A DNA stretch of 64,000 nucleotides, taken from NCBI GenBank assembly GCA_020848615.1, contig JADLHW010000109.1, positions 1 through 64,000 on the forward strand. Direction: 5' to 3'. Each line of letters opens with the position of its first letter. The first letter of the stretch is position 1. The notes below the pieces were generated by a model. That model saw nothing but the letters and a program-made list of their open reading frames with translations, searched no databases and was not told where the DNA came from. Of the stretch, positions 14,471 to 50,328 are shown one piece after another. The position numbers were made by a program, and so were the translations under genes. The DNA is from Thermoleophilia bacterium. Its GTDB lineage: Bacteria > Actinomycetota > Thermoleophilia > Miltoncostaeales > Miltoncostaeaceae.

Positions 14471-14555
14471 CTCACACGATCCTCACATGCGGGGCGCGGA
14501 GTACTGGACCAATGGGCGGCGCGCCCCGCCGAAAGCCCCACCTACAGTGACCGGC

Positions 14556-20718: not shown

Positions 20719-22122
20719 CTACGGGATGCCGGGGACGAAGACGGTGCCGGTGCTGCGGCGCTCCGCCGTGTTGGCGTTGATGTCGCGCACCACCAGGCGC
20801 CACCGGTAGCGGCCGGGCTGCCAGCCCACGTCACCCGGCACGATCTTGAAGGCGTTGGTCCCGGGCTTGCTGCGCGACCGGATCTCCCGCCGCACCATGT
20901 GCCTCTGGGGTCCGGTGAGCCGCAGGATCACGAAGGTCGTGCCGTGGTCGGTGTCGTCGCACCACGTGACCGACCAGCGCAGCTCGAACAGGTCGGGCCG
21001 CACGGACGCGTCGAGGATGACCGGCCTGTCGGGGTTCCCGTTGTGCTGGCTGGGGCACACGCTGTCGGTGGTGGAGGTCGAGCCACCGTCGTCGCCGTCA
21101 CCGCCGGTCGCGCCGGACGCCCTCGTGCTGCCGTCACCCGTCCCGTTCGCCGCGGTGCCGTCGCCGCCGCCACCGCCGGCGGTGAGGACGAGCACCACGA
21201 TGGCGGCGGCCACGGCGAGCACGCCCAGCACCACCATGCGGGCGGTGGAGTCCGGCTCCTGGGGGCCCAGCGTGCCGAGTGCCTGTTCCTTCTGGTCGGC
21301 GGCCGTGCCCATGAGGTGATCGGTGTCCATGGCCTCCGCGTCGGCGAGGCGGCGCACCCGGTTCTCGGCGGTGGGAGGGATGAACTCCCGCACGAACCGG
21401 GGAGGCGGGACCAGCAGCAGCCCCGACGCGAGGAGCCAGCCGGACCCCGATGGCGGGTGGTCGTCGATCGACCGGATGGCCTCCTCCACCGCGAACCGCT
21501 GGCCGGTGCGCTGCAGCGCCTCGTCGTCGGCGATCGTCTCCCGGGCGTGCACCAGGATCACCAGGGCGGCGAGGGCGATGGCGAGCCCGAGGATCCCCAG
21601 GACCATCCCGCCGACGCTGGGGATGCGCGCGACCAGGGCCACGAACGCGAGCGGGGCGATGATCCACGCGATCGAGTCGATCGCGGCGTACGGCTGTCGC
21701 AGCCGGGACAGCTCCCGCGTGATGACGGCCATCTGCGCTTCGTGGCTCAGGTTCGTGAGGAGCCCCGAGGACACCACCAGCCGGCCCCCGCGGGGCCAAC
21801 CGGTGACCACGGCGACCGGCGCGTCGGTGTCGGACAGCATGATGCGGGGCACCGTGATCCGCTCCCGCACCTGGCACATCTGCCGCACCAGGCGGTACAG
21901 CTCGGGTTCCTCGGTCTCGGGCAGATCCCGGGCACGGGTGAGCCGTGGCGTGGCGAGGTCACGCAGGAGGGGGGCGAGCAGCAGCAGGGCGAGCACGGGG
22001 ATGCCGAGCCACACGGAGCGGGACCATGCGAGGGCGACCACGACGACGGCGGCGAGGGCCGCCAGGCCGGCGCCCGCCAGCAGGCGGGTGTCGGCGGTTC
22101 CGGAGCGAGCGGGGGGAGTCAT
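20719..22122 (-). CDS. membrane protein with degenerate M48/HtpX-type domain
   Basis: A 467-residue protein with two N-terminal membrane helices (about 14-53), then a region laid out like M48 metallopeptidases: PRIMLSDTDAPVAVVTGWPR, LVVSSGLLTNLSHEAQMAVI, and where HExxH should stand, RELSR (136-140). Both zinc histidines are gone, so it cannot be a normal zinc protease. Two further helices (about 155-200), a cytosolic stretch, another helix (about 290-310), a Gly/Ser/Asp linker, and a C-terminal extracellular Ig-like domain with Cys (SVCPSQHNG, VTWCDD) follow. It lies 63 bases downstream of the sigma gene and likely shares its transcript. Role unknown. Confidence 0.72.
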   Translation of the reverse strand: MTPPARSGTADTRLLAGAGLAALAAVVVVALAWSRSVWLGIPVLALLLLAPLLRDLATPRLTRARDLPETEEPELYRLVRQMCQVRERITVPRIMLSDTDAPVAVVTGWPRGGRLVVSSGLLTNLSHEAQMAVITRELSRLRQPYAAIDSIAWIIAPLAFVALVARIPSVGGMVLGILGLAIALAALVILVHARETIADDEALQRTGQRFAVEEAIRSIDDHPPSGSGWLLASGLLLVPPPRFVREFIPPTAENRVRRLADAEAMDTDHLMGTAADQKEQALGTLGPQEPDSTARMVVLGVLAVAAAIVVLVLTAGGGGGDGTAANGTGDGSTRASGATGGDGDDGGSTSTTDSVCPSQHNGNPDRPVILDASVRPDLFELRWSVTWCDDTDHGTTFVILRLTGPQRHMVRREIRSRSKPGTNAFKIVPGDVGWQPGRYRWRLVVRDINANTAERRSTGTVFVPGIP

Positions 22123-26023: not shown

Positions 26024-26785
26024 ATGTTCATCCGCGCGATCACCCATGACCACGCCTCCGCCGCCGCGGAGGTGGCGGCCACCGGCATGACCGACATCCG
26101 CCGCCGGGCGGGCACGCTGGCGGACGCCTACCGCCGGTGCGGGCCCCTGGGGCTCGCGGTGGCCGTGGCCGGGCACATCCCGAGCCGCGCGCTGCAGGTG
26201 GAGTGGTTCGGGGTGCACCAGGTCACCGCCGCGGCGACGCACGTCGCGGAGCCGTGGCCCGGCGCCCGCGCCGCCGACTACGACGACGCCGACCTGTTGG
26301 CGGGGGTCGGCCATGTGAGCGCCGCCGAGGTCCGCGGCCGCTTCGCCCGGGGCGACGACGTGTTCATCGCGTTCGACGACGCCGGGCTGCCGGTGGCGTA
26401 CATCTGGTACCGGTCGGGATCCTGGCGGGAGGACGACATCGAGTTCCGGCTCGAGCCGGACGAGCGCTGGGGATACGACCTGTACGTGCGTCCCGAGGCG
26501 CGGGGCCTGCGCGTCGCGTCCGGGTTGGTGAGCGTCGCGCTGGTGGGCCTGCACGAACGCGGCGTGCGGCGCGTGGTGTCGGTGATCGACCACCTGAACG
26601 AGGCGTCGCGGCGCAGCGCCTCCCGCTACGGGTCATTCAAGCTCACATCGGTGCTGACCGTCGCCGTCCCATGGGGCGGTCTCATCCGCGAGCGCCCCAT
26701 GGGCGGTCGCGCCAGGTGGAGCTGGTACCGCCGGCCGGCGGGCGTCCGCCGCCGGCCGCTCAACGCCCCGCAGGGGGTCCGGTGA
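26024..26785 (+). CDS. GNAT-type N-acetyltransferase at the head of the polysaccharide island
   Basis: A 253-residue protein whose middle and C-terminal parts follow a GNAT fold: VFIAFDDAGLPVAYIWYR (strands 3-4), then LYVRPEARGLRVASGLVSVAL, where the acetyl-CoA loop is loosely RxxRVAxGL, and NEASRRSASRYGSFK in the last helix. The N-terminal 100 residues are of unknown fold. Its stop overlaps the start of the next gene in a GTGA arrangement, so it is translated together with the CelD-like protein. Acylation of a sugar or peptide in surface glycan synthesis is inferred from the neighbourhood. Confidence 0.72.
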   Translation: MFIRAITHDHASAAAEVAATGMTDIRRRAGTLADAYRRCGPLGLAVAVAGHIPSRALQVEWFGVHQVTAAATHVAEPWPGARAADYDDADLLAGVGHVSAAEVRGRFARGDDVFIAFDDAGLPVAYIWYRSGSWREDDIEFRLEPDERWGYDLYVRPEARGLRVASGLVSVALVGLHERGVRRVVSVIDHLNEASRRSASRYGSFKLTSVLTVAVPWGGLIRERPMGGRARWSWYRRPAGVRRRPLNAPQGVR

Positions 26786-28056
26786 CGGTGACGGTCCACA
26801 CGCCACGGCGTGCGGCCGACGATCCGGTGCCCTCCTCCCGCCTGGTGACGGCCGTCGAGCCCTTCACGGCCGCGCTGGAAGCCGAGTGGGACGCCCTCGC
26901 GCATCGCGTGGACGCCCCGCCGTTCCTGCGGCCCGCGTACGTGCGGGTGCGGCACGCCGCGTTCGAGGAGGGCGCCGGCTTCGCGGTGGTGACCGTGCGG
27001 CGCGACGGGATCCTGCACGGCGCCCTGCCGGTGGCCGACGGAACCGCCGGCTTCGGGCCGCCGTCGAACTACGAGACGCCCCTGGAGGGGATCGTCGCCG
27101 ACGACCCGGCCGCGATGCGCGAGGTGGCGGCCACGCTCATGACCCTGCCGGCGCCGCGCGTGGTCTTCACGTACCTCCGGGCCGGCGGGCCGTCCCGTGC
27201 CGTCATCGACGCGGCGGTGTCGGCGGCCGGGCGGCGGGCCTACAGCCGCACGACCATCCGCGTCCCGGTGGTGGACACCGCCGGCGCGTGGGACGACTAC
27301 TGGGCCTCCCGGTCGCGCAACCTGCGTCACAACGTGGAGCGGTGCGCCCGCCGGGCCCGTGAGGCCGGCGAGCTGGTGTTCGAGGTGCACGACGCGTTCG
27401 AGGACGGCCGCTTGGACGCCCTCCTGCAGGACGGGTTCGCCGTCGAGGCGTCCGGGTGGAAGGGCGCGGAGGGCACGGCGATCCTCGCCGACCCGCGCAC
27501 CCGCACCTACTACACCGAGCTCGCCGCATGGGCCGCCGGCGAGGGATGGCTGCGCCTCGCGTTCGTGCGGCTGGACGGTGTGGCCATCGCCTTCTGCTTC
27601 GGCATCGAGGCCCACGGCGTGCACTACGCCCTGAAGGTGGGCTACGAGGACCGCATGAAGAAGCTGTCACCCGGCATGCTGCTCATGCGCGGGCTCATCC
27701 AGCGGTCGTTCGAGACCGGGCTGCGCAGCTTCGACTTCGCCGGCCACGACGCGGCGTGGAAGTCCGCGTGGGCCACCGGCATCGACGAGTACGAGGGGAC
27801 GCTGGCGTTCGCGCCGAGCGTCGCCGGACGCGCGTCGCACGCGCGGTACCGGTGCCGGCGGTGGGTGGCCGACGGCCCCCTGCGGCCGGCGCTGGAGCGC
27901 GCCGCCGCACGCGTGCGGGGGGGCCGGCGACGCACCGAGGAGCCCCCCGTGAAGGACCCGTCAGCGTCGTCGCCGAAGGCCGCAGGAGCGGCCCTGGCGA
28001 CGGCGACCAGCATCGACGCAGACGCGTCCGTCACGAGGGTAGAGTCCGCCGGATGA
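26782..28056 (+). CDS. CelD/BioF2-like (FemAB-related) acyltransferase
   Basis: A 424-residue protein of the double-GNAT type found in exopolysaccharide loci. The characteristic central part is seen: YWASRSRNLRHNVERCARRA, then GWKGAEGTAI, LRLAFVRLDGVAIAFCFGIE, and YEDRMKKLSPGMLLM leading to FDFAGHDAAWKSAWA. Such proteins transfer acyl or aminoacyl groups to polysaccharide units, though few have been assayed. The GTG start and stop are both coupled to neighbours by four-base overlaps, making a three-gene block with the GNAT and the Wzz-like gene. The last 60 residues are a low-complexity Ala/Ser tail. Confidence 0.82.
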   Translation: MTVTVHTPRRAADDPVPSSRLVTAVEPFTAALEAEWDALAHRVDAPPFLRPAYVRVRHAAFEEGAGFAVVTVRRDGILHGALPVADGTAGFGPPSNYETPLEGIVADDPAAMREVAATLMTLPAPRVVFTYLRAGGPSRAVIDAAVSAAGRRAYSRTTIRVPVVDTAGAWDDYWASRSRNLRHNVERCARRAREAGELVFEVHDAFEDGRLDALLQDGFAVEASGWKGAEGTAILADPRTRTYYTELAAWAAGEGWLRLAFVRLDGVAIAFCFGIEAHGVHYALKVGYEDRMKKLSPGMLLMRGLIQRSFETGLRSFDFAGHDAAWKSAWATGIDEYEGTLAFAPSVAGRASHARYRCRRWVADGPLRPALERAAARVRGGRRRTEEPPVKDPSASSPKAAGAALATATSIDADASVTRVESAG

Positions 28057-30413
28057 GCACCTCCTTCGATTCCATGCAGGCCGCCTCGGGACGCCCGCAG
28101 GCCCGCAGCTGGGTCCGTGAGGCCGAGCACCGCGGCGGCCTCTCCCGCTACGTCCAGGTCACGAAGGACCACTGGCGCCTCATGCTGATCCTCGTCGGGC
28201 TGGTGCTCGGCGCGGCGCTGCTGGCGGTGGCGGTGTCGTCGAAGGAGTACAAGGCCGAGGCCCTCCTGTCGGTGTCGCCCGTGTCGACCGACGATCCCCG
28301 GTTCGAGGGCATCAACGTCATCCGGGTCACCAGCGTCCCGGGCCGTGACGTCGAGACCCTCGCCCGGCTCGTGAAGACCATTCCCGTGGCGCGCGCGGCC
28401 GCGGCCACCGACGGCGTGGGCGGCGATCCCGCCGTCCTCCTGTCCCGCATCACCGTATCCCCGGTCGGCGGTTCGTTCCTGGTGTCGGTCACGGCGTCCG
28501 CGCCCACGGGCGAGGAGGCGGCGGCACTGGCCAACGCCTTCGCGCAGGGCACCATCGCCGTGCGTTCCGCGGCGTTCCGCGAGCAGGTGGAGGGCCGCAT
28601 CGACGCGGTGAACGCCCAGCTCAGCTCATCCGCCCTGGGCGCGGGCACCCGCGAGCAGCTGAACACCCGCCTCGACCAGCTCCAGGCCCTCCGTGCGAGC
28701 GACGACCCGTCGATCCAGCTGGAGACGCTCGCGACGGTGCCCGAGTCGCCGGACGCCCCGCCGCTGCCGCTCATCATCGCCATCGCCCTGGTCGTGGGCG
28801 GCATCGTCGCCTTCGCGGGCGCCGTGGCGGTCGACACCGCCAGCTCCCGGGTGCGCACCGAGGGGCAGCTGTCGGAGCGCTTCAACCTGCCCGTGCTCGC
28901 CCGGGTGCCGAAGCCCGCCGCGGGCCAGGCCGCGCTCGCCGACGCGTACCGCGACCTCGCGCAGTCCATCGCGGTGTCCCGGAGGGACCCCGACCGGCCC
29001 CGCGCCCTGCTGTTCACCTCCGCGGGTGACGACGAGGGCTGCACCACCGCCGCCGTCGAGGCGGCCCGCACCCTGGCCGATGCCGGTCAGCGGGTCCTGC
29101 TGGTGGACGCCGACCTGCGGCAGCCCACGATCGCCCGCGGCTTCAACCTCACCCCGCGATACGGCACCGGCTCGGTGCTGCTGGGCGACATCCCGCTGGA
29201 GCGCGCGGTGCAGGACGTTCCGGGCTTCCGCGGCGCGCTGGGGGTCATCGGCGGCGACGACCCCGACTCGGCGGCCGCCGCCGTGTCCCTGTCGCCCGCG
29301 CAGGTGACGCGCATGGTGAACGCGGCCACCGGACACGCCGACTTCGTGATCTTCGACGGCGCCCCGCTCGGCACCGTCGCCGACGCGGCCCCGGTCGCGA
29401 ACGCCGTGGACGATGTCGTCATCGTCGTCCGCCGCGGCGAGACCGAGCTGTCGCGGCTCAACCGCCTCACCGAGGTGCTGCTGCGCTACGACGTGGCGCC
29501 CAGCGGCCTGTGCCTGGTGGACTGGTCCCAGCACGCGAGCGAACGTGCCGCGGGCGGGTCCCTGCACCGTGGATCCAAGGGCGAGGAGGACCGTCTGCCG
29601 CGGCCGGCGCGCCCGTCCCGCGAGCGCGTCCGCGCCCGTGACGAGGAGCGCCCGCGTCGCCGGGAGCCGGCGGCCGCGGAGGCCGGTGCCGCGCGCCGCG
29701 GCCAGGAGGCCGCCGCCGCGCCGGTGGCCGAGCGCCCCGCGTCGCCGCCCGCCCCGGCCCGCCCCGCGCCGGAGGCCTCCGCCGCGGAGGCCGACCCCTC
29801 GCGGCCGTCCCTGCGCGAGCTGCGTCAGCAGATCGAGGAGGCCCGCGCGGCCGACCAGGCTCGCGAGGAGGCCGCCCAGGTGGTGGCGCCCGCTCCCGTC
29901 GCACCGGCCGTCGCCGAGACCCCGGAGCCGGCCGCGGCCGCGGCCGAGGACGCATCGCAGCGCGTGACGCAGGTCACCGCCCTCCGCGACGCCGTGACCC
30001 GCCCCGAACCGGAGGTCTCGGCGGATGAGCCGGAGCCCGTCGCCGTGGAGGAGTCGGAGCCCGCCGCCGTGGAGGAGCCGGAGCCCGCCGCCGTGGAGGA
30101 GCCGGAGCCCGTCGCCGTGGAGGAGCCGGAGCCCGTCGCGGAGGCCGAAGCCCCCGCCGCCGAACCCGAGCCGGAGGCCGCGCCCGCCGCGGAGCCCGAG
30201 GCGTCGGAGGATCCCGAGGCGACGGACGACGACGCCGGCGACGCGGACGAGGATGACGGGGACGACGCCGACGAGGACGACCCCGGCGCGCAGGACGCGG
30301 CGTCCGGCGCCGCCGGCAACGGGGCCGCCGGCCGCGTGTCCGGCGCCCGGTCCCGCCCGGCCTCCCGCACCGCCCGCAACCCGCGGCGCCGCAAGACGCC
30401 GCCGCGGCGGTAG
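28053..30413 (+). CDS. Wzz/BY-kinase-like protein with altered Walker A and long acidic tail
   Basis: A 786-residue polysaccharide co-polymerase-like protein. Residues 35-260 are a Wzz-type chain-length domain between two membrane helices (43-62, 239-260). Residues 280-480 are a ParA/BY-kinase-like domain: Walker A-like GDDEGCTT (325-332) with Cys330 where the ATP-binding lysine should be, a good Walker A' VLLVDAD (348-354), and Walker B FVIFDGAPL (D435). The last 280 residues are charged low-complexity sequence with an eight-residue EPEPVAVE-type repeat, an Asp/Glu run and a basic end, with no tyrosine cluster. The family normally autophosphorylates C-terminal tyrosines; this protein probably cannot. 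Start overlaps the CelD gene by four bases. Confidence 0.82.
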   Translation: MSTSFDSMQAASGRPQARSWVREAEHRGGLSRYVQVTKDHWRLMLILVGLVLGAALLAVAVSSKEYKAEALLSVSPVSTDDPRFEGINVIRVTSVPGRDVETLARLVKTIPVARAAAATDGVGGDPAVLLSRITVSPVGGSFLVSVTASAPTGEEAAALANAFAQGTIAVRSAAFREQVEGRIDAVNAQLSSSALGAGTREQLNTRLDQLQALRASDDPSIQLETLATVPESPDAPPLPLIIAIALVVGGIVAFAGAVAVDTASSRVRTEGQLSERFNLPVLARVPKPAAGQAALADAYRDLAQSIAVSRRDPDRPRALLFTSAGDDEGCTTAAVEAARTLADAGQRVLLVDADLRQPTIARGFNLTPRYGTGSVLLGDIPLERAVQDVPGFRGALGVIGGDDPDSAAAAVSLSPAQVTRMVNAATGHADFVIFDGAPLGTVADAAPVANAVDDVVIVVRRGETELSRLNRLTEVLLRYDVAPSGLCLVDWSQHASERAAGGSLHRGSKGEEDRLPRPARPSRERVRARDEERPRRREPAAAEAGAARRGQEAAAAPVAERPASPPAPARPAPEASAAEADPSRPSLRELRQQIEEARAADQAREEAAQVVAPAPVAPAVAETPEPAAAAAEDASQRVTQVTALRDAVTRPEPEVSADEPEPVAVEESEPAAVEEPEPAAVEEPEPVAVEEPEPVAEAEAPAAEPEPEAAPAAEPEASEDPEATDDDAGDADEDDGDDADEDDPGAQDAASGAAGNGAAGRVSGARSRPASRTARNPRRRKTPPRR
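30027..30140 (+). repeat. 24-base tandem repeat inside the Wzz-like gene
   Basis: Four full units (30027-30050, 30051-30074, 30075-30098, 30099-30122) and a partial fifth of a gag-c/tcg-gag-cccg... unit encoding an eight-residue acidic Pro-containing repeat. Units differ by one to two bases. Copy number may vary among strains without breaking the frame. Confidence 0.9.
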
Positions 30414-30449: not shown

Positions 30450-33428
30450 ATGACCGGGGACGGGGGCGCTCCCGTCGCCGTCGCCGACGCGGCGCCCCCC
30501 GCACGGGGCGCCCGCGGCGGCGGCGTCGCCTCCCAGACCGCGCTCATCCTGGGGGCGCGCGTGGTGGGCGCGATCTCCACCGCGGTCATCACGATCGTCC
30601 TCACGCGCCTGCTGGGCGTCGCCGGGTACGGCGACTACGCGCTGGCGCTCACCATCGCGACGATCGCCGGGCTGTTCGCCTCCCTGGGCGTCGACTCGGC
30701 CACCTCCCGGTGGGTCGCGGAGGGCTACAACCGCGGGGAGGCGGTGTGGATCGCCGTGCGCGTGGGCCTGCGGCTGCGTGCGCTGCTGGCGGGGGTCACG
30801 TTCGGCCTTTTGTTCCTGCTCGCCGGTCCCATCGCCCACCTGTTCGGGCACCCCGGCCTGGCGAACGCCGTCCGCGCCGCGACGGTCGCGCTGTGCTTCA
30901 GCGCGGGCTTCTCATGGGTGAGCGGCGTCTTCGAGGGGCTCCGCAGCGGCGTCATGCTCGCGGTGGTCTCGCTGGTGAAGGCCGTCGTGGAGTTCGTGGT
31001 CGTCGTGGGCCTGCTGGTCGCCGGGTTCGGCGCCGTGGGGGCGCTGCTCGGCAACGCCGCGAGCTACGCGGTCGCCGTCGGCGTGGGCATGTACGCGATG
31101 CGATCGCACCTGGTGCGCAGCGAGGCGCCGTCCGCGACGGTGAGCGGCCAGGAGCTCCTGAAGTACGGCATCCACATCTGGCTGGCGGGGGTCGCGTGGC
31201 TCCTGTTCGAGCGCGTCGACCTGGTGCTGCTGGGCGCCTTCCTCGACACCACGGCCGTCGGCCTCTACGACGCCCCATGGCGCATCGCCACCATCCTCGG
31301 ACTGCTGGGCCTGAGCCTCGCCTCCGCGGTGACGCCGCGCCTGGCGTCGCAGGACGCCATGTCCGCCGGGCGGCTGCTCACGAAGGCGCTGCGCGTGGGC
31401 CTCGTGTTCTACATCCTGCTGTCGGTCATCATCGCGGTGGCCGCGCGGGACATCATCGTGCTGCTGCTGGGCGAGGACTACGCGCGCAGCGCGGACGTCC
31501 TCCGGATCCTGCTGCCGTACATCATCCTCATCGGCTTCGCGCCGATCGTGTCCCGGGCCCTCGACTACCTGGGCGGCGCCGCCGTCCGGAAGTGGATCGC
31601 GCTCGCGGCGTTCGTCGTGAACCTGGCGCTCGACCTGGTGCTCATCCCCACGGTCGGGCTGCTGGGCCCGGCGATCGCCACCGGCGTGGCGATCCTCGTG
31701 TTCGTCGCCGGCCACCTCATGCTCGTGGTCCGCCAGGCCCACCTCGACAACCGCCGGTTGCTCGCCACGATCGCGCGGTCGCTGGGCTCGGCCGCGGCGG
31801 GCGGGGCGTTCTACTGGGCCCTCATCGTGCTGGACGTGCCCCCCGTGGTCCGGCTGCTCGCCGGGTTCCCGCTGGCCGTCGGTGTCGCCGTGGTCATGCT
31901 CATCGGGGTCGGGGAGGTGCGCGACGAGTCGGGCATCCCCCCGTCCATCGCCGTGCGGCTGCGCGCCATCGACGATTGGTTCGCCCGCCACCTCGACGGC
32001 ATCACGCCGCGCGACCTGGCGCTGCTGGTGCCCATCCTCGCCGCGGCCCTCGTGATGGGCCTGGCGGTGGGGAGGAACCCGCTCATCGCCGTCGGCGGCC
32101 TGGTGGCGATCGCCGTGGTCACGCTGCTGCTGTCGGACCTCACGATCGGCGTGGTCGCGTTCGTGCTCATCCAGCCGCTGGCGCTGGTGATCCCCGCCGG
32201 GGAGGCCGTGGTCGCCAAGGGCGCCGGGGTGATCCTCATGGTCACGTGGGCCGTGGCGCTGCGGTACCGCAGCTCCCGCGGCAAGTACCTGGGGTTCGTC
32301 GCCAGCAACGCCCCGGTGGTGTTCCTCATCGTGGCGTTCATGGGCTGGCTGGTCGCGTCGCTGCTGTGGTCCATCAACACCGCGGCGTCCATCGACGCGA
32401 TCCAGCGGTACGCCCTGGGATTCGTGCTGCTGGGCATCGTGTTCACCGCGACGTTCGACCGGGGCGCGGCGATCCGGGTGGCGGGGGCCTTCTCGCTCAG
32501 CGGCGGGCTGTCGACGCTCCTCGGGCTGGCGATGAACCGCCGGGGCGACGAGGGCCGCTTCATCGGCACGTTCCTGGACGCGAACGAGTACGCGGCGTTC
32601 TGCGTGCCGTCGCTGCTCATCGCCGTGGCGCTCGCCGCCTCGGCCTCCACGCCGCTGCGGCGCATCGCGTTCCTCAGCACGGCGCTGCTGTGCGGCGCCG
32701 GCATCGTGTTGTCCGGCTCCCGCGGGGGCATCATCGCGATCGGCGCGGCGCTGGCCGTGTGGATCGTGTTCGGCGGCCGGTGGCGCGTGCGGGTGCTGGT
32801 GGCGAGCATCGCCGTGGTGTTCGTGCTGGTGGGCTACATCGAGACGGCCGCGTCACCGGCGCTGCGGACGCGCATCGAGACCGTCTACAAGGGGCAGCAG
32901 TTCGGCACCAGCGCCGGCACGGGGCGCGCCGACATCTGGCAGGTGGGCCTGCGCGTGTATCGCGCCCACCCCGCGGTGGGGACGGGCACCGGCACGTTCA
33001 CGGACGCCACGCCGCGCTACCTCGCGCAGGCGGGCCTGGTGCGGCGCCTCGACTTCTTCACCGAGACGCCGAAGGTCGCGCACAACATGTACCTGCACCT
33101 GCTGGTGGAGGTCGGGATCGTGGGCCTCGCCCTGTTCGGCGGGCTCCTGCTGGCCTGCGTCGCCGCCGCGATACGCGCCGCATGGTTGTTCCGCCGCACC
33201 GGCGACGTGACCATGGAGCTGCTGTCGCGGACCGTGGCGGCCGGCAGCGTGGGCCTCCTGGTGGCCGACTTCTTCATCTCCGCGCAGTACCAGCGGGTGC
33301 TGTGGATCCTCATGGGCATCTGCCTGGCGCTGTACGGCGTCGCCCGCCGTCAGGCGTCGGTGCGCGCCCCGGAGCCCGGTGGGCCCGCCTGGGCTCCCGA
33401 CGCCCGCAGGACCGCGCGCACCCCCTGA
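30450..33428 (+). CDS. fused Wzx-type flippase and O-antigen ligase/polymerase
   Basis: A 992-residue integral membrane protein combining two activities usually coded separately. Residues 25-480 are a polysaccharide flippase of the MATE/Wzx type: LILGARVVGAISTAVITIVL at the start, GYGDYALALTIA, FERVDLVLLGAF, and alternating helices to about residue 475. A short amphipathic linker (AIDDWFARHLDGITPRDL) leads to residues 525-970, a second helix set with the O-antigen ligase/Wzy signature: LSGSRGGIIAIGAALAVWIV, GTGRADIWQVGLRVYRAHPAVGTGTGTF, and AHNMYLHLLVEVGIVGL. It would flip lipid-linked units and polymerise or ligate them. Thirty-six bases separate it from the Wzz-like gene upstream. Confidence 0.87.
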   Translation: MTGDGGAPVAVADAAPPARGARGGGVASQTALILGARVVGAISTAVITIVLTRLLGVAGYGDYALALTIATIAGLFASLGVDSATSRWVAEGYNRGEAVWIAVRVGLRLRALLAGVTFGLLFLLAGPIAHLFGHPGLANAVRAATVALCFSAGFSWVSGVFEGLRSGVMLAVVSLVKAVVEFVVVVGLLVAGFGAVGALLGNAASYAVAVGVGMYAMRSHLVRSEAPSATVSGQELLKYGIHIWLAGVAWLLFERVDLVLLGAFLDTTAVGLYDAPWRIATILGLLGLSLASAVTPRLASQDAMSAGRLLTKALRVGLVFYILLSVIIAVAARDIIVLLLGEDYARSADVLRILLPYIILIGFAPIVSRALDYLGGAAVRKWIALAAFVVNLALDLVLIPTVGLLGPAIATGVAILVFVAGHLMLVVRQAHLDNRRLLATIARSLGSAAAGGAFYWALIVLDVPPVVRLLAGFPLAVGVAVVMLIGVGEVRDESGIPPSIAVRLRAIDDWFARHLDGITPRDLALLVPILAAALVMGLAVGRNPLIAVGGLVAIAVVTLLLSDLTIGVVAFVLIQPLALVIPAGEAVVAKGAGVILMVTWAVALRYRSSRGKYLGFVASNAPVVFLIVAFMGWLVASLLWSINTAASIDAIQRYALGFVLLGIVFTATFDRGAAIRVAGAFSLSGGLSTLLGLAMNRRGDEGRFIGTFLDANEYAAFCVPSLLIAVALAASASTPLRRIAFLSTALLCGAGIVLSGSRGGIIAIGAALAVWIVFGGRWRVRVLVASIAVVFVLVGYIETAASPALRTRIETVYKGQQFGTSAGTGRADIWQVGLRVYRAHPAVGTGTGTFTDATPRYLAQAGLVRRLDFFTETPKVAHNMYLHLLVEVGIVGLALFGGLLLACVAAAIRAAWLFRRTGDVTMELLSRTVAAGSVGLLVADFFISAQYQRVLWILMGICLALYGVARRQASVRAPEPGGPAWAPDARRTARTP

Positions 33429-33635: not shown

Positions 33636-35369
33636 ATGGACCGTGCCCGATCCGTCCGCGGCCGGCTGGCCGCCTGGTGCGTCGCGGCCGGGGTGCTCGC
33701 CCCGCTCGTCGCCGTTCCGTCACCGGCCAGCGCCGCCGACTGCACCAGGTACGCGTCCACGTCCGGGAGCGACTCCGCCGCGGGGACCGCGGCCGCGCCG
33801 TTCCGGACCGCGCAGAAGCTGGCCGACAGCCTCACCGCGGGGCAGGTGGGGTGCCTCACCGGCGGCGGCGTGTTCGGCGGGGTCCGGGTGGGCCGCAGCG
33901 GCATCACGCTCACCTCGGCTCCCGGCGGGCCCCGGGCGACCCTGCTGGGCGGCATCTCGGTACCGGACAGCAGCAACGACGTGGTCATCGAGAACCTCAT
34001 CCTCAACGGCCGCACCTCCGGCGCGCGGGTGAGCCCCGACATCGAGGGCGACCGGGTGGTGATCCGCAACAACGAGATCACCAACGACCACACCGCGATC
34101 TGCCTCCACATCGGCTCGAACGCCGGGTTCGGGATGGCCTACGACGTGGTGGTGGAGGGCAACCGCATCCATGACTGCGGGCGCCTGCCGGCCACCGGCT
34201 ACGACCACGGCATCTACGTGAACAACGCCGAGCGGACGCGGATCGTGAACAACGCGATCTACGACAACGCCGACTACGGCATCCACCTCTACCCGGGGGC
34301 GAAGAACAGCCACATCGCCAACAACGTGATCGACGGCAACGGCCGCGGCCTCACATTCTCGGGCGACGCCACGCTGAGCTCGTACGGGAACCTGGTGGAG
34401 GACAACGTCATCAGCAACTCGCTCGTCCGCTCCAACGTCGAGTCCTGGTGGGGCGGCGCGGTGGGCGTGAACAACCGCGCCGACCGCAACTGCCTGTGGA
34501 ACGGCCGGCTCGGGAACGTGGCGGCGCAGGTGGGGTTCACGGCATCCGGGAACCTCGCGACGAACCCGCAGTTCACGGACCGCGCGGCGAAGGACTTCAC
34601 GCTGATGCCCGGGTCGCCGTGCGCCGGGAAGGGCCTGGTGACCTCGGTGACGACGCCGCCCCCGCCGCCGCCGTCCGAGCCGGTCCCGGACCCCGCGCCG
34701 GTTGATCCCGCCCCGGCTCCGGATCCCGTCCCGGACCCCGCTCCAGCCCCGGATCCCGCCCCGGCCCCCGACCCCACGCCGGCGCCGGTCCCCGCGCCCG
34801 CCCCGGACCCGGCACCGGCACCCGCCCCGGTTCCGCCGCCGCCCTCGGAGCCCGTGACGGATCCCGTCCCGGCGCCGCCCGCCGACCCCACCCCCGTGCC
34901 CGCTCCGGCGCCCGACCGCGCACCGGCGGATCCCGCCCCGGTCCCTGACCCCGCGCCGGTTCCGGTTCCGGTTCCGGTGCCGGGGCCGTCCAAGCCGTCC
35001 AAGGGCGGGACCCCGGCGGCCCGCGGCGTGGCCGAGGCACGGCGTGACGCCCTGGCCCTCCTGCGGCGCGCCGGTGCCCTGGAGCGCCGGGTCACCGGCC
35101 GCAACACCGTCTGGATGCCGGGGCTGTTCGCCGACGCGGGCCGGCCCCCGGAGACCCAGCTGCGCGCCGCCCGCTGGATGGCGCTGGAGGCGCAGCGGCA
35201 CCTCAGCCTGGTCGACGACCGGCTCCGCGGCCGGCGCGTGAAGCGCCCGCAGACCGCGCCGCCCCACGGGTTGCTGTTCACCAACGAGGTGCTGTGGAGC
35301 ACGCAACGGCTCCTGGGCGACCAGGAACCCCGCCTGGCGCGGCTCACCCGGCGGGCCGAAAACCGCTGA
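33636..35369 (+). CDS. secreted right-handed beta-helix protein with Pro-rich spacer
   Basis: A 577-residue exported protein. A signal peptide (LAAWCVAAGVLAPLVAVPSP) precedes a beta-helix domain of about 300 residues, recognised by strand-turn repeats: VVIENLILNGRTSG, VVIRNNEITNDHTAICLHIG, VVVEGNRIHDCGRLPATGYD, YDNADYGIHLYPGAKNSHIA. This fold is common in polysaccharide lyases and epimerases. Then about 115 residues of Pro-Ala-Pro-Asp repeats make a wall-spanning spacer, and a helical C-terminal domain (about 460-577) has no recognised family. GGAGG lies seven bases before the ATG. A paralogue sits at 47700-49175. Enzymatic activity is unproved. Confidence 0.8.
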   Translation: MDRARSVRGRLAAWCVAAGVLAPLVAVPSPASAADCTRYASTSGSDSAAGTAAAPFRTAQKLADSLTAGQVGCLTGGGVFGGVRVGRSGITLTSAPGGPRATLLGGISVPDSSNDVVIENLILNGRTSGARVSPDIEGDRVVIRNNEITNDHTAICLHIGSNAGFGMAYDVVVEGNRIHDCGRLPATGYDHGIYVNNAERTRIVNNAIYDNADYGIHLYPGAKNSHIANNVIDGNGRGLTFSGDATLSSYGNLVEDNVISNSLVRSNVESWWGGAVGVNNRADRNCLWNGRLGNVAAQVGFTASGNLATNPQFTDRAAKDFTLMPGSPCAGKGLVTSVTTPPPPPPSEPVPDPAPVDPAPAPDPVPDPAPAPDPAPAPDPTPAPVPAPAPDPAPAPAPVPPPPSEPVTDPVPAPPADPTPVPAPAPDRAPADPAPVPDPAPVPVPVPVPGPSKPSKGGTPAARGVAEARRDALALLRRAGALERRVTGRNTVWMPGLFADAGRPPETQLRAARWMALEAQRHLSLVDDRLRGRRVKRPQTAPPHGLLFTNEVLWSTQRLLGDQEPRLARLTRRAENR

Positions 35370-35411: not shown

Positions 35412-36677
35412 TCAGCGCGTGCGGCCCGCCCGGGCCGATGCCTCGATGAGGTCGCGCAGCGCGGCGGTGTTGCGCTGCAGGTCGTAGGCGTCCAGCACGC
35501 GCACGCGTCCGGCGGCGGCGAGGCGGGCGGCGCCCTCGGGGTCGTCGTGGATGCGCCGCAGCGCCGCGGCGAGCGCCTGGGAGTCCCGCTCGGGCACCAG
35601 GAACCCGGTGACGCCGTCCTCGACCAGCTCCGGGATGCCCGACAGGGATGAGGCCACCACCGGCACCTCGGTCGCCAAGGCCTCCATGAGCGCGACCGGG
35701 ATGCCCTCCATGTCGCCGTCGTCCGCGGTGACGCTGGGCAGCGCCATCGCGTCGCTGGCCTGCAGGACCTCGCTCACCCGCTCCCGGCTGCAGTGCCCCA
35801 GCAGCTCCACGGAGTCGCCCAGCCCGAGCTCGGCGATGCGCCGCTCGATGGCGGGCCGCATGTCGCCGTCGCCCACCAGCACGCAGCGCACGGGGACACC
35901 GTCCGCGCGGAGCGCGGCGACGGCGTCCAGGAGGTGCAGCTGCCCCTTCTTCTGCCGGAGGCTGGCGATGCACGACACCGTGAACATGTCGTCCGCGGTG
36001 CGAGGGCGGGGGGTGCGCGGCGTGAACGCCGTGAGGTCGACGCCGCAGCGGATCACCGAGGTCTTGTCCGTCGCCCACGAGCCGTACCAGGTGCCGAACA
36101 GGCGGCGGTTGAACTCGGAGATCGTGACGACGAAGCGGGCCTCCCGGAGCTTCTCGTCGAGCATCGAGCGGTCCACGTAGATGTCGTGGGCGTGGGCGGT
36201 GATGCTGTACGGGATGCCGGTGAGGCGGTTCACCGTCCACGCCGCGAGCGCGGGGTGGGTCGCCCAGTGCGCGTGCACGTGCTGGATCCCGGCGGCCTCC
36301 ATCTCCCGCGCGAACCTGGCGCCCAGCGGGATCGCCGCGGCGGCGCGCGTGAGGAACGCGGGTGACCGCACGTTCTCGCGGATCGCCCGGGCCCACGCCC
36401 CCAGGTACGCGCGCGGCCGCCGGCGCAGCCAGTACGCCTGCGCGGCGAGCGTCTCCCGGGACCGCAGGCTCGCGTAGTGCGTGCGCTCCGCGAGGGGCAG
36501 GGCCTCCGGGTGGGGGTTCGCCGCGCCCCTGGGGCGCAGCGGGAAGATCTGGACGTCCACGCCGAGGCGTTGCAGCTCGATGATCTCGAACAGGACGAAG
36601 GTCTCGGTGACCACCGGGAACGCCGACATCGTGTAGGCGATCCGCAGCGGCACGCCGGTTGCGGGGGATTCGGGCAT
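35412..36677 (-). CDS. GT4-family glycosyltransferase
   Basis: A 421-residue GT-B fold glycosyltransferase. The N-terminal acceptor half starts MSAFPVVTETFVLFEIIELQ, the beginning seen in exopolysaccharide GT4 enzymes, and includes HVHAHWATHPALAAW. The donor half has SVIRCGVDLTAFTP, VLVGDGDMRPAIE, and the EX7E motif in MEGIPVALMEAL. It is the last gene of a four-gene minus-strand block. It should add one sugar of the repeat unit in the cytoplasm; donor and acceptor are unknown. Confidence 0.92.
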   Translation of the reverse strand: MPESPATGVPLRIAYTMSAFPVVTETFVLFEIIELQRLGVDVQIFPLRPRGAANPHPEALPLAERTHYASLRSRETLAAQAYWLRRRPRAYLGAWARAIRENVRSPAFLTRAAAAIPLGARFAREMEAAGIQHVHAHWATHPALAAWTVNRLTGIPYSITAHAHDIYVDRSMLDEKLREARFVVTISEFNRRLFGTWYGSWATDKTSVIRCGVDLTAFTPRTPRPRTADDMFTVSCIASLRQKKGQLHLLDAVAALRADGVPVRCVLVGDGDMRPAIERRIAELGLGDSVELLGHCSRERVSEVLQASDAMALPSVTADDGDMEGIPVALMEALATEVPVVASSLSGIPELVEDGVTGFLVPERDSQALAAALRRIHDDPEGAARLAAAGRVRVLDAYDLQRNTAALRDLIEASARAGRTR

Positions 36678-37535: not shown

Positions 37536-38702
37536 CTAAACCGGCGGAATCTCCGACGGCACCCAATCGTCCGGGGGGTTTGTCGCCAAGAGCTCCCGGT
37601 ACAGCGCGACCCAGCGGTCCCGCACCCGGTCCAGGGTGTACTCCCGCATCGCCCGGTCCCGCGCGCGGGACGCGAGGTCCGCGCGGCGGGCGGGGTCCTC
37701 AAGCAGCCCGGCGATCGCGGCGCCGAGGGCCGGTGGCGTGCGCGGGGGCACCAGCACCCCGCAACGGTCGCCGTCGAGGATCGCCGGCATGCCGCCCACG
37801 TCGCTCGCGACGATGGCCCGCTCGGCGACCATCGCCTCGATGAGCGCGATGGGACTGCCCTCGGAGTCCGAGGGGAGGACCACCACGTCGAGCGAGCGCA
37901 GCACGTCGGGGACGTCCTCCCGCACCCCGAGGAGGTGGACGCGGTCCCCGATGCCCAGCCGGGCCACGGCCTCCTCGACCTCGCCCCGCAGCGGGCCGTC
38001 GCCGGCGACGACCAGGTGGGCCTCCGGGACGCGTCGAAGCACGTGCGGGAACGACTCCACCAGCACGTCCACGGCCTTCATGGGGCGCAGCATCGCGATG
38101 GCCCCCACCAGGGGCGTCCCGCCCGGGAGGCCCAGTTCCTCGCGCAGGTTCCCCGGCGCGCGGTGCAGCTCGGCCGGGTCGCGCAGCAGGCCGGTGGGGA
38201 TCATGCGGATGCGCTTCCGGGGTACGCGCTCGATGTCGTGCATGCGGCGGGCGTCCTCCGGGGACACCGCCACGAAGGCGGTGGCGGCGCGCCCGATCCA
38301 GAACCCGTCCAGGAGCCTGCGGGCCCGCTGGCCCTCGTAGGTCCAGGAGTGCTCCGTGGCGATCACCACGGGCACCCGGGCGAGCCTGCCGAGCAGCGGT
38401 GCCCACACGTTCGACCCGAACATGTGGGCGTGCAGCACGTCGACGCGTTCGCGCCGCAGGTACCGCACGAGCCGCCACCACTCCCGCGGGGACACCGTGC
38501 GGCGGCGGCCCAGCATGAGCACCCGCACGCCGGTCTCGTGTGCGATGGGCCGGGTGTTGCCGCCGGGGTCGCGGCTCGCGCACACCACCACGTCGTGGCC
38601 GTCGGCGGCGAGTGCCTTCGACAGCCCCACGGTGAACCGCTCGGCGCCACCACCGTGGACCGATTCGATGAGCTGCACGATCCGCAGGGGGCGTCCGGTC
38701 AT
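37536..38702 (-). CDS. GT4-family glycosyltransferase
   Basis: A 388-residue GT-B glycosyltransferase. It opens RIVQLIESVHGGGAERFTVG, the classic glycine-rich acceptor loop of GT4 proteins, includes DVLHAHMFGSN and ATEHSWTYEG, and ends with the donor motifs VVAGDGPLRGEVEE and SDSEGSPIALIEAM, where EX7E coordinates the nucleotide sugar. Its ATG overlaps the stop of the upstream CelD-like gene (ATGA, 38699-38702). It should build the repeat unit of the surface polysaccharide. Confidence 0.93.
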   Translation of the reverse strand: MTGRPLRIVQLIESVHGGGAERFTVGLSKALAADGHDVVVCASRDPGGNTRPIAHETGVRVLMLGRRRTVSPREWWRLVRYLRRERVDVLHAHMFGSNVWAPLLGRLARVPVVIATEHSWTYEGQRARRLLDGFWIGRAATAFVAVSPEDARRMHDIERVPRKRIRMIPTGLLRDPAELHRAPGNLREELGLPGGTPLVGAIAMLRPMKAVDVLVESFPHVLRRVPEAHLVVAGDGPLRGEVEEAVARLGIGDRVHLLGVREDVPDVLRSLDVVVLPSDSEGSPIALIEAMVAERAIVASDVGGMPAILDGDRCGVLVPPRTPPALGAAIAGLLEDPARRADLASRARDRAMREYTLDRVRDRWVALYRELLATNPPDDWVPSEIPPV

Positions 38703-39957: not shown

Positions 39958-40923
39958 GTGAGAAGAGTTCTGGTGACCGGCGCCGCCGGTTATGTCGGTG
40001 GCGCCCTCATCCGGCGCCTCCTGGCGGACCCCGACACCGAGGTGGTGGGCGTCGACCTCTGCGAGATGGATCATGGCGCCGAGGGTGTCCGGGAGATCCT
40101 CGACCACCCGCGGTTCACCTTCGCGCGCGAGGACGTCCGGAACACCGAGGCCCTCGCCAAGCTGCTGCCCGGCACCGACGCCGTGGTGCACCTGGCGGCG
40201 ATCGTCGGTGACCCCGCCGGTCGCCGCGACCCCGACGCGACCCGCGCGATCAACGTCGACGCGAGCCTCGCGCTCATCGACGCGGCCCGCGCCGCCGGCG
40301 CCGGCCACCTGGTGTTCGTCTCCACGTGCAGCAACTACGGCGTGTCCGACACCAGCACCCTGGTCACCGAGGACGGGGAGCTGAACCCCGTCTCCCTGTA
40401 CGCGGAGACCAAGGTCGCCGTCGAGACGAAGCTCATGCAGGAGACCGAGCTGCCGTGGACGGTGTGCCGGTTCGCCACCGTGTACGGCGTCGCCCCGCGC
40501 ATGCGGTTCGACCTCACCGTCAACGAGTTCACGATCGACGCCCTCAACGAGGGCGTGCTGGAGATCTACGGTGAGCAGTTCTGGCGTCCCTACGTCCACG
40601 TGGAGGATGCGGCCCGTGCGGTGGAGCTGGTGCTCGCGACGCCGGAGAAGAGCCGCGGGCGGGTGTTCAACGTCGGCAACTCCGATGAGAACTACACCAA
40701 GCGCATGATGTACGAGCTGCTGAAGGAGCGGCTCCCGGAGCTGCGCGCCGAGTGGGTCAAGATCGACGAGGACCCCCGGTCCTACAAGGTCAGTTTCCAG
40801 CGGATCACGGACGAGCTCGGGTTCCGGACCACCTGGACGGTTCCCACGGGCATGGACCAGATCCTGCAGCACGCCCGGGCCGGGGCCTTCCCCGACCCCA
40901 AGGCCGGGCGCTTCCGCAACTGA
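39958..40923 (+). CDS. NAD-dependent nucleotide-sugar epimerase/dehydratase
   Basis: A 321-residue extended short-chain dehydrogenase. The NAD loop is VTGAAGYVGG (residues 6-15), followed by VVGVDL; the catalytic set is intact, with STCSNYG (Ser/Thr near 122), Y148 and K152 in LYAETK. PYVHVEDAARAVELVL and VFNVGNSDENY are typical C-terminal motifs. GTG start with GGAG five to eight bases before. It should convert a nucleotide sugar for the repeat unit. Contrast with the second epimerase at 52024, which lacks the lysine. Confidence 0.92.
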   Translation: MRRVLVTGAAGYVGGALIRRLLADPDTEVVGVDLCEMDHGAEGVREILDHPRFTFAREDVRNTEALAKLLPGTDAVVHLAAIVGDPAGRRDPDATRAINVDASLALIDAARAAGAGHLVFVSTCSNYGVSDTSTLVTEDGELNPVSLYAETKVAVETKLMQETELPWTVCRFATVYGVAPRMRFDLTVNEFTIDALNEGVLEIYGEQFWRPYVHVEDAARAVELVLATPEKSRGRVFNVGNSDENYTKRMMYELLKERLPELRAEWVKIDEDPRSYKVSFQRITDELGFRTTWTVPTGMDQILQHARAGAFPDPKAGRFRN

Positions 40924-41271: not shown

Positions 41272-42786
41272 TCAGGCGTGGTGCTCGGCACCGCCCGTCG
41301 CCGCCGCCGCCTTCGAGCTGTCCTTGCCCGGACGGAACACGACGTGGCTCGCGAGCTGGCTCAGGTGCAGCTCACCGCCGCGGATCACGGCGATACCGGT
41401 CCACAGCAGGCACTTCATGTCCAGCAGCCAGCTGCGGTGGTCCACGTAGTACTGGTCGATGGCGAGCTTGGTGGGGAGCAGCGTGGACAGGTAGAACGCC
41501 TCGAAGTCGTCGCCCACCAGGTGCTCGAACTCGCTGCGGTACCGGATCTGGCTGAGGCCCGTGATGCCGGGGCGGACGGCCAGCACGCTGCGGTACGCCT
41601 CGTGGTGCGCCCGGACGTAGCGGGCGTCCTCCGGCCGCGGGCCCACCAGGCTCATGTCGCCCTTCATGACGTTCCACAGCTGGGGCAGCTCGTCGAGCTT
41701 GGAGTGCGCGAGGAACCGGCCCATGCGGGTGAACCGGTCGTCGTTGTCCATGGTGAGCGCCGGCCCGGTCGCCCCGTCGTACATCTTCCTGAACTTCAGC
41801 ATCTTGAAGGGCTGCTCGTTCCGCCCGATGCGGTTGGCGCGGTAGAGCACCGGCCCGGGGGAGTCCAGCTTGATCGCCGCGGCGAGCACCGCCCACACCG
41901 GCGCGGTGAGCACCAGCAGGATGGACGAGAGCACGACGTCGGTGATGCGCTGCGCGATCTCCGACCCGCGGCGGCTCGCGTGGCCGCTGGCGACCACCAC
42001 CGGCAGTCCCTCGAGGCGGCGCAGCGACAGGGACCCGTCCAGGCCCTCGAACAGCCGGGACACGACCGCCACCTGCGTGCCGTTGAGCCGGCACTCGCGC
42101 ACGGCCTCCTGCAGCTGGTGGTCCGGGGACCCGAGGAACGAGAACACCACGAGGTCGATCCTGTGGCCCCGCACGACGTCGCCGAGATCGTTGATGTCAC
42201 CGAGTGTCGCGGGGACCGGGCCGCCCTCCACCGTCTCCGAGTGGTGGTCGTCGACGGTGCCGACCACCTCGAAGCGGCGGCCCCGCGGCAGGGAATCGAC
42301 GAGGTGCTCGGCGACGTCACCGGCCCCGACCACCAGGACCCGCACGGGGTGCCCGAACGCCTTCGCCATGATCGCGCCGACGAGCCACGCGGATGCGACG
42401 GACGCCGCGGAGATGAGGAACGCGTCGGCGGCGGTGAGGCCGTCGATGAGGCCCTGCCCGGCGATCGCCAGCACCATCGCGATCGCGAGCACCGCGCCGG
42501 CCGCGTGTCCCACGCGGTGACGCCGCACCAGCACGGGACGTGCCCGCTCGGTCGGCGGAATGCTCCACGAGACCACCGCCGCGCTGAGGATGCCCATGAT
42601 CACGCCGACCCCGAGGGCGGCACGCGTCCCCAGGTCGCTGAGCGCGATCGCGATGTTCGTCGCGACCAGCGTCGCCACGATCACCTCCGCGGAGCGCATG
42701 AATCGCGGTGAACGGCTCCGCCGGACGTCCTCCGCCGGACCTGCGGCGAGTTTGGGTTCCGGGCGGAGTGCGGCATGTGTGGTCAT
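41272..42786 (-). CDS. polyprenyl glycosylphosphotransferase (initiating sugar transferase)
   Basis: A 504-residue membrane enzyme of the WbaP/WcaJ class that puts the first sugar phosphate on undecaprenyl phosphate. About four N-terminal helices are followed by a CoA-binding-like nucleotide fold (VRVLVVGAGDVAEHLVDSL, about 150-260), another helix (ITDVVLSSILLVLTAPVWAV), and the catalytic domain: LYRANRIGRNEQPFKMLKFR, FLAHSKLDELPQLWNVMKGD, and MSLVGPRPE. An upstream ATG would add eight residues; neither has a clear ribosome site. It starts the lipid-linked unit that the flippase fusion would export. Confidence 0.93.
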   Translation of the reverse strand: MTTHAALRPEPKLAAGPAEDVRRSRSPRFMRSAEVIVATLVATNIAIALSDLGTRAALGVGVIMGILSAAVVSWSIPPTERARPVLVRRHRVGHAAGAVLAIAMVLAIAGQGLIDGLTAADAFLISAASVASAWLVGAIMAKAFGHPVRVLVVGAGDVAEHLVDSLPRGRRFEVVGTVDDHHSETVEGGPVPATLGDINDLGDVVRGHRIDLVVFSFLGSPDHQLQEAVRECRLNGTQVAVVSRLFEGLDGSLSLRRLEGLPVVVASGHASRRGSEIAQRITDVVLSSILLVLTAPVWAVLAAAIKLDSPGPVLYRANRIGRNEQPFKMLKFRKMYDGATGPALTMDNDDRFTRMGRFLAHSKLDELPQLWNVMKGDMSLVGPRPEDARYVRAHHEAYRSVLAVRPGITGLSQIRYRSEFEHLVGDDFEAFYLSTLLPTKLAIDQYYVDHRSWLLDMKCLLWTGIAVIRGGELHLSQLASHVVFRPGKDSSKAAAATGGAEHHA

Positions 42787-43306
42787 GGCCGTCACGATAG
42801 GTCTGGGCACTTTCTCGCCGCGCGGGCCGGACGGCTAGGTCTTCCTGACCCTGCGGACGGTTTCGCCAGAGGGTGCTGTGCGTTTAGGATGTTTTGCGTA
42901 TTTTGGCCGGGCGTCCCATCGCCCGGCCGACTCGCGTAACCGCGCCGCATGCGCGCGTTCGGGGCCGTTGTCCCCAGGAGCCACGGCGTACGCCTGCCGG
43001 GAGCCGAGCCCAGGTCGCCGTCCATGGCGACCGGATCCCGACCCTCGCCGTCCACGACGGCTGCCGCGAGCCTGCCGGGGTGAGCGGCGGCGAGGTCGTG
43101 GCGGAGGACCGGCTCACCGCCGATCAGCGCGGAGCGTGGGGACCGGGTCGGATGCATTCGCCGGCGCCCTCTCCCACTCGGAGGACATGGACATCCTCGC
43201 GGACGCCGGATGCGTGGAGGCCGTGCGGCTGAACACCTGAGCGGCCGCGCCCCTGAAGGGCGCGGCCGCATACGGCGCGCTCACGCGCCCCGACCAGGCG
43301 ATGGGG
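42787..43306. other. 520-base region, possible decayed gene
   Basis: Upstream region of the phosphoglycosyltransferase gene, followed by bases with strong G/C third positions but no intact gene. A relatively AT-rich patch (42885-42904) precedes a 9-pair hairpin (42905-42913 with 42920-42928). On the plus strand, a frame around 43010-43135 (GEVVAEDRLTADQR) and another from 43145 to 43240 (SHSEDMDILADAGCVEAVR, then stop) each look coding but are out of register, as after a frameshift. The minus strand shows comparable bias, so the direction is unsure. Confidence 0.35.
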
Positions 43307-49179: not shown

Positions 49180-50190
49180 ATGACACCCACGGGTCAGGCA
49201 CCGCTCGTCACGGTCATCATGCCCATCCGCAACGAGGAGTCGTTCATCGAGCGCTCCCTCGGGGCGGTCCTGGCCCAGAACTACCCGGGGCACCGCATGC
49301 AGGTCCTCGTCGCGGACGGCATGTCCGACGACCGCACCCGGGAGATCGTGGCGCGCCTCGCGGCCGGGTACCCCGACACCGAGGTCGAGGTGGTCGACAA
49401 CCCGGGGCGCATCGTGCCGACGGGGTTCAACGCCGCGTTGGACCACGCGAAGGGCGACGTGGTGGTGCGCGTGGACGGCCACACGATCATCGAGCCGGAC
49501 TACGTCACGGAGTGCGTGGCGGCCCTCACGGAGACCGGCGCCGACAACGTGGGCGGCCGGATGGACGCCGTGGCGGACGCCCCCATGGGGCAGGCCATCG
49601 CCCTGGCCACCTCCTCGCCGTTCGGGGTGGGGAACTCAGCGTTCCACTACGCCTCGGGCCAGCGGTGGGTCGACTCGGTGTACATGGGGGCGTGGCCCCG
49701 CGAGGTCTTCGACCGCGTCGGGCGGTTCGACCCGGAGATGGTCCGGAACCAGGACGACGAGTTCAACTACCGGCTGGGCGCCAGCGGGGGGCGCATCCTG
49801 CTCACCGACCGCATCCGGTCCCGGTACTACAACCGGCCGTCCCTGAAGAAGCTGTTCAGCCAGTACCGGCAGTACGGGTACTGGAAGGTGCGGGTGCTGC
49901 AGAAGCACCCGGGCCAGATGAGCGCCCGCCAGTTCGCCCCGCCGGCGCTGGTGGCGGCGCTGGCCGGCGGCGCGGTGCTCGCGCCGTTCATCCGCCCGGT
50001 GCGCGTCCTGTGGGCCGGGGTCGTGGTGCTGTACGCGGGGGCCAACCTCGCGGCGTCGGTGATCGTGGCCCGGAAGCACGGGACGAAGCACCTGTCGCGC
50101 CTGCCCGTGGTGTTCGGGGCGCTGCACATCGGCTACGGCGCGGGGTTCCTCGCCGGGCTGGTGCGGTTCCGGACCCGCTGGCGGGGGTGA
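49180..50190 (+). CDS. GT2-family glycosyltransferase, ExoA-like
   Basis: A 336-residue processive-type or single-step glycosyltransferase. The GT-A nucleotide fold is visible: VTVIMPIRNEESFIERSLGA, LVADGMSDDRTREIV, VVVRVDGHTIIEPDYV (the D-x-H in place of DXD, as in ExoA proteins), and FDPEMVRNQDDEFNYRLGAS. Two to three C-terminal hydrophobic segments (about 250-290 and 310-325) anchor it in the membrane. It is four bases downstream of the beta-helix gene. Confidence 0.92.
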   Translation: MTPTGQAPLVTVIMPIRNEESFIERSLGAVLAQNYPGHRMQVLVADGMSDDRTREIVARLAAGYPDTEVEVVDNPGRIVPTGFNAALDHAKGDVVVRVDGHTIIEPDYVTECVAALTETGADNVGGRMDAVADAPMGQAIALATSSPFGVGNSAFHYASGQRWVDSVYMGAWPREVFDRVGRFDPEMVRNQDDEFNYRLGASGGRILLTDRIRSRYYNRPSLKKLFSQYRQYGYWKVRVLQKHPGQMSARQFAPPALVAALAGGAVLAPFIRPVRVLWAGVVVLYAGANLAASVIVARKHGTKHLSRLPVVFGALHIGYGAGFLAGLVRFRTRWRG

Positions 50191-50251: not shown

Positions 50252-50328
50252 CCCTGACGTCCCACCCTCCCCGGGCGGGAACATCGTCGTGGTCGAACAC
50301 ACCCCTCATGACGAACGGAGTTCCGACA

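Follow-up and report, generated by a model that had tools for sequence, protein, structure and literature searches.

Flippases, which move sugar units across the membrane, and the enzymes that join those units into chains are normally two separate membrane proteins. The 64,000-nucleotide stretch of Thermoleophilia DNA analysed here (hereafter, the window) contains a long reading frame that was described in an initial annotation as a single protein performing both steps, which raises the questions of whether the fusion is real, what the second half does, and what is gained by joining the two. The reading that we favour with good confidence is that the frame encodes a bifunctional flippase-polymerase of a Wzx/Wzy-type exopolysaccharide pathway and that it originated in a single event, when a wzx gene and its cognate wzy neighbour fused within one family of the class.

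One reading frame with two membrane domains

Translation of the window yields 992 codons at 30450-33428 (+) with no internal stop, and full-length, stop-free fused frames were found in four other genomes, namely G001 (79% identity), G025 (63%), G012 (59%; a single-contig genome), and G015 (49%). Its stop-free state in these genomes indicates that the long frame is more than a chance open frame in high-GC DNA. Pfam placed Polysacc_synt (PF01943) at residues 30-299 (E 1.2e-24), Polysacc_synt_3 (PF13440) at residues 50-347 (E 2.3e-20), and, on the same polypeptide, Wzy_C (PF04932) at residues 745-896 (E 3.7e-22). The fusion of a Wzx flippase with a Wzy/ligase-type half is thereby confirmed, as the initial annotation had claimed, and the two motifs that it quoted are present, SGSRGG at residues 755-760 and AHNMYLHLLVEVGIVG from residue 877.

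AlphaFold2 (AF2) models were built half by half because the Wzx sequences were misplaced when the fused proteins were aligned jointly with the separate wzx and wzy genes; the models thus describe each half and not their relative arrangement within the whole chain. The flippase half was modelled with a mean pLDDT of 90.7, and its top Foldseek matches were MurJ (E 8.2e-10) and WzxE (E 8.6e-10); mapping of the modelled helices on the sequence gave 14 membrane helices, with the N- and C-termini inside. The model of the polymerase half (mean pLDDT 89.8) has WaaL 7tpg as its closest PDB fold (Foldseek, E 7.4e-10), with approximately 14 membrane helices that start inside. Pfam, AF2, and Foldseek therefore agree with the description of both halves as complete, the first a 14-helix MOP-type flippase and the second of the Wzy_C/WaaL fold. 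The linker between them is placed in the cytoplasm because the flippase half ends inside and the polymerase half starts inside, and the amphipathic character ascribed to it is matched by a predicted helix with a hydrophobic moment of 0.39 (Table 1). A sequence search of the PDB returned no meaningful match, no place in the plasmid records matched at least 80% of the protein, and no natural Wzx-Wzy fusion was found in the open literature searched.

Table 1 Coordinates of the fused gene, its parts, and neighbouring features in the window
Feature	Coordinates	Strand	Basis or remark
Fused wzx-wzy gene, 992 aa	30450..33428	+	Frame intact in four other genomes
Flippase half, MOP-type Wzx, residues 1-486, ~14 membrane helices, both ends cytoplasmic	30450..31907	+	Pfam, AF2, Foldseek
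Cytoplasmic linker, residues 487-519 (~33), short amphipathic helix 498-515	31908..32006	+	AF2 helix, topology, moment
Polymerase half, Wzy_C/WaaL fold, residues 520-972, ~14 membrane helices, large extracytoplasmic loop 800-882	32007..33365	+	Pfam, AF2, Foldseek
R758 codon, probable counterpart of WaaL R215	32721..32723	+	Invariant 43/43; motif and spacing
R826 codon, probable counterpart of WaaL R288	32925..32927	+	Invariant 43/43; motif and spacing
H878 codon, probable counterpart of WaaL H338	33081..33083	+	Invariant 43/43; motif and spacing
FemAB-like acetyltransferase (Acetyltransf_6)	26782..28056	+	Syntenic in G001, G025, G012
Wzz/PCP-2a-type co-polymerase, degenerate tyrosine-kinase domain	28053..30413	+	Directly upstream of fused gene, 36 bp gap
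Degenerate Walker A (SAGDDEGCTT) of co-polymerase	29019..29048	+	
Family 4 glycosyltransferase	35412..36677	-	
Family 4 glycosyltransferase	37536..38690	-	
NAD-dependent sugar epimerase	39958..40923	+	
Bac_transf phosphoglycosyl transferase, initiates repeat units	41272..42810	-	
Family 2 glycosyltransferase of cluster	49180..50190	+	

Cluster context and the upstream co-polymerase

The fused gene lies in an exopolysaccharide cluster with a phosphoglycosyl transferase, glycosyltransferases, and a PCP, and the neighbourhood also holds epimerases, a DegT aminotransferase, a nucleotidyl transferase, and FemAB-like acetyltransferases. Given the Bac_transf gene, the family 2 and family 4 glycosyltransferases, and the sugar-modifying genes that surround the fused gene, the locus is read as a repeat-unit polysaccharide cluster. 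Adjoining the fused gene is a right-handed beta-helix protein (33636-35369, +) that looks secreted and is Pro-rich in its C-terminal part; homologues of it recur in many clusters of the class. A proprotein convertase P-domain protein (50308-51825, +) is conserved in G025, G012, and G015, where it again lies close to the fused gene. The window's genome has five Wzy_C and four Polysacc_synt matches besides the fused gene, so the fusion is not the sole set, and other partners are conceivable for either half. A second, unfused flippase lies near a Wzy_C protein on G000:C35 (about 13392-14693, +, and 21164-21583, -), a contig that also bears an LCP gene.

Co-polymerase homologues are situated directly upstream of the fused gene in all four of the other fused genomes. 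The co-polymerase has a weak AAA_31 match and lacks both features of an active BY-kinase, the Walker A lysine and the tyrosine-rich tail: in all five fused genomes the lysine is lost (EGCT, ESRT, or ENRT in place of EGKT), and the last 60 residues contain 0-1 Tyr. EGK or DGK is retained in almost all of the unfused co-polymerase homologues examined; one EGR form (L014/L093) and one frame with an unalignable motif (L118) depart from this. Since the kinase loss and the fusion coincide on one branch, they constitute one co-occurrence and not a statistical association. Pseudokinases are known from PCP-2 proteins, either as partners or as domains (PMC12004946). In the genus of the window's genome, the co-polymerase additionally has a long C-terminal Pro/Glu-rich repeat tail, EPEPVAVEEPEP... 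(about 29550-30413, +, and L067 in G001), which the shorter homologues of G025, G012, and G015 lack.

Proposed coupling of flipping and polymerisation

We propose that the N-terminal 14-helix MOP flippase would translocate undecaprenyl-linked (Und-PP-linked) repeat units, that the C-terminal Wzy_C half (GT-C/WaaL fold) would polymerise them on the outer face, and that the adjacent PCP-2 co-polymerase would set chain length. The short cytoplasmic linker would keep flippase and polymerase close together at a fixed 1:1 ratio, such that a freshly flipped unit would emerge beside its polymerase. Physical proximity of the two is certain if the chain stays intact, and a direct hand-over of lipid-linked units from Wzx to Wzy is plausible.

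The linker bears on how far this coupling might go. Within the genus, dN/dS is approximately 0.28 in each half and approximately 0.15 in the linker (dN 0.05, dS 0.34), the latter value resting on a small count of 4 non-synonymous versus 8 synonymous changes; this pattern indicates equal purifying selection on both halves and codon-level constraint on the linker within the genus. Between genera, the linker has a dN of approximately 0.6 and indels in multiples of three only, its sequence diverging freely with the frame and approximate length kept, which makes it less likely that the linker itself has a specific part in channelling. Such poor conservation, despite the kept frame and length, would suit a passive tether, in which both halves are active and the fusion fixes stoichiometry and co-insertion only, and the fact that close relatives manage with separate genes points the same way. 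However, those relatives could already co-express the two genes, which they retain within a single cluster, and the fusion has been maintained in proteins that have diverged to as little as 49% identity. We regard a tether that hands over no substrate as a credible possibility that is nonetheless the less probable one; it overlaps with our preferred reading of a bifunctional flippase-polymerase, from which it differs on hand-over only.

A further-reaching proposal is that, in this family, flippase and polymerase form an obligate coupled machine with direct unit passage from Wzx to Wzy, and that covalent coupling made the ancestral tyrosine-kinase control of the co-polymerase dispensable, so that its kinase decayed. 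We hold this to be rather doubtful; if true, the Wzx/Wzy pathway would here exist in a form that is organised covalently and does without the kinase. Under the bifunctional reading, the loss of the co-polymerase kinase motif beside the fusion raises the testable idea that kinase control of chain length is linked to physical coupling, and the fused protein, as a single chain, would allow the structure and kinetics of coupled flipping and polymerisation to be studied on one construct. Mutant complementation led others to propose a Wzx-Wzy-Wzz super-complex (Marolda 2006 and Saldias 2008, as quoted in PMC10030265), and a natural covalent fusion is independent evidence, of the Rosetta-stone type, for flippase and polymerase acting next to each other.

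Polymerase or ligase

Topology derived from the modelled helices predicts that R758, R826, and H878 lie on the outer face, and none of the three varies among 43 homologues; they are probably the counterparts of R215, R288, and H338 of Escherichia coli WaaL, which are reported to be important for function (PMC3643930). The initial annotation had named this half an O-antigen ligase/polymerase, and of this label the ligase-type fold stands and the term ligase gives way to that of a repeat-unit polymerase. No match to LpxC was found in the window's genome (a 96% complete draft in which the controls behaved), which makes lipid A a very unlikely target of ligation; with the exopolysaccharide cluster and the PCP-2a-type neighbour also considered, the second half is best read as Wzy. 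It is thus most likely a polymerase that joins repeat units, and we infer polymerase rather than ligase chemistry on these grounds.

That the C-terminal half might instead be a ligase or oligosaccharyltransferase acting on peptidoglycan, protein, or lipid draws on the fact that the Wzy_C domain and WaaL fold are common to ligases, PglL, and some Wzy proteins, and on the best sub-threshold NCBIfam match, a putative O-glycosylation ligase (64.9 bits against a cut-off of 188). We nevertheless consider it unlikely: besides the missing LpxC, PglL_A and PglL_B domains were not among the Pfam matches of the fused protein at E<=0.001 beside Wzy_C, the three LCP proteins in the window's genome could attach the polymer to the wall, the gene directly follows a PCP-2 co-polymerase homologue, a position typical of Wzy, and the analysed neighbourhood of the cluster contains no further recognisable wzy-like gene.

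Integrity of the chain

An ATG near codon 522-526 in four of the five fused genes would be compatible with a separate Wzy also being made from an internal start; alternatively, a single chain could be made and then cut. Both seem highly improbable to us, since the window gene is without that ATG, no internal start codon common to all five fused genes was found, inspection revealed no recognisable ribosome-binding site before any such ATG, and the linker is constrained at the codon level within the genus. The draft state of the window's genome (183 contigs) might invite the suspicion that an assembly or sequencing artefact removed a stop between the halves, and this reading, whose probability we put at next to nil, is refuted by the same fusion in four other assemblies, one a single contig. 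The fusion accordingly outlasts both objections named in the initial annotation, a sequencing error and separate genes in all relatives, as four relatives carry the full-length frame intact.

Distribution and origin of the fusion

Two overlapping samples, 399 genomes from the class and 396 from the phylum, yielded the fusion in five genomes only; as both lie within one phylum, unrelated Wzx-Wzy fusions could be missed. The five belong to a family that we take to be Miltoncostaeaceae (Thermoleophilia), other genomes of which are mostly without the fused protein and without a close co-polymerase homologue. The remaining matches in both samples cover one half and are separate genes, usually located in the same type of cluster with Wzz-kinase and glycosyltransferase homologues.

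The fused Wzx halves form one clade in the tree (100/100), as do the fused Wzy halves (100/100). The separate Wzx nearest to the fused clade is that of G053, with weak support (82/52), and the nearest separate Wzy proteins are those of G014, from the same family, and G053, in a set of seven at 99/99. That each half forms one clade nearest to separate genes fits a single fusion of a cognate pair. In G053, wzx comes after the co-polymerase gene, in the same way as the fused gene, and in G014 wzy stands alone after a PHP-like gene (identified by inspection). From these trees and gene orders, the simplest account would be a single fusion in an ancestral Wzz-Wzx-Wzy arrangement.

Several further candidates were rejected. 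Wzy-containing frames of 890-1082 aa in family f7 have N-terminal parts without a Pfam match, a Wzx-profile hit, or hydrophobic segments, and these parts are probably open high-GC frame; the other long Wzy frames of the phylum sample gave no Wzx-profile match. A weak full-length tblastn match in G071 (41-969, one stop) corresponded to separate Wzx-like frames only. In G675, which belongs to another family of the phylum, the arrangement differs: wzy and wzx are unfused, neighbouring, overlapping frames, in the order wzy-wzx (L141, 2339-6138, -).

Comparison with known systems

The fused protein resembles the Wzx/PST-type flippases of the MOP superfamily, for which WzxE and MurJ provide structures, in its fold, its approximately 14 helices, and its Polysacc_synt domain, and differs from them in bearing a polymerase at its C-terminus; to our knowledge, the known members are all stand-alone proteins. 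With Wzy polymerases and WaaL ligases that have a Wzy_C domain, it shares the 7tpg fold, the catalytic Arg/Arg/His set, and the HN-x9-Gxx-G motif, whereas its N-terminus is joined to a flippase and, in contrast to WaaL, the acceptor is probably another repeat unit and not lipid A. The upstream gene, like Wzc-like PCP-2a co-polymerases with a BY-kinase or pseudokinase, combines a membrane part and a kinase-like domain in one chain, but has lost the Walker A lysine and the tyrosine-rich tail, as in reported pseudokinase variants (PMC12004946). Also close to the fused locus are the separate wzx and wzy of other Thermoleophilia (for example G053, G227, and G354), which are homologous to its halves and lie in the same type of cluster with a Wzz-kinase and glycosyltransferases, but which are two genes, often on opposite strands, accompanied by a co-polymerase whose Walker A is intact.
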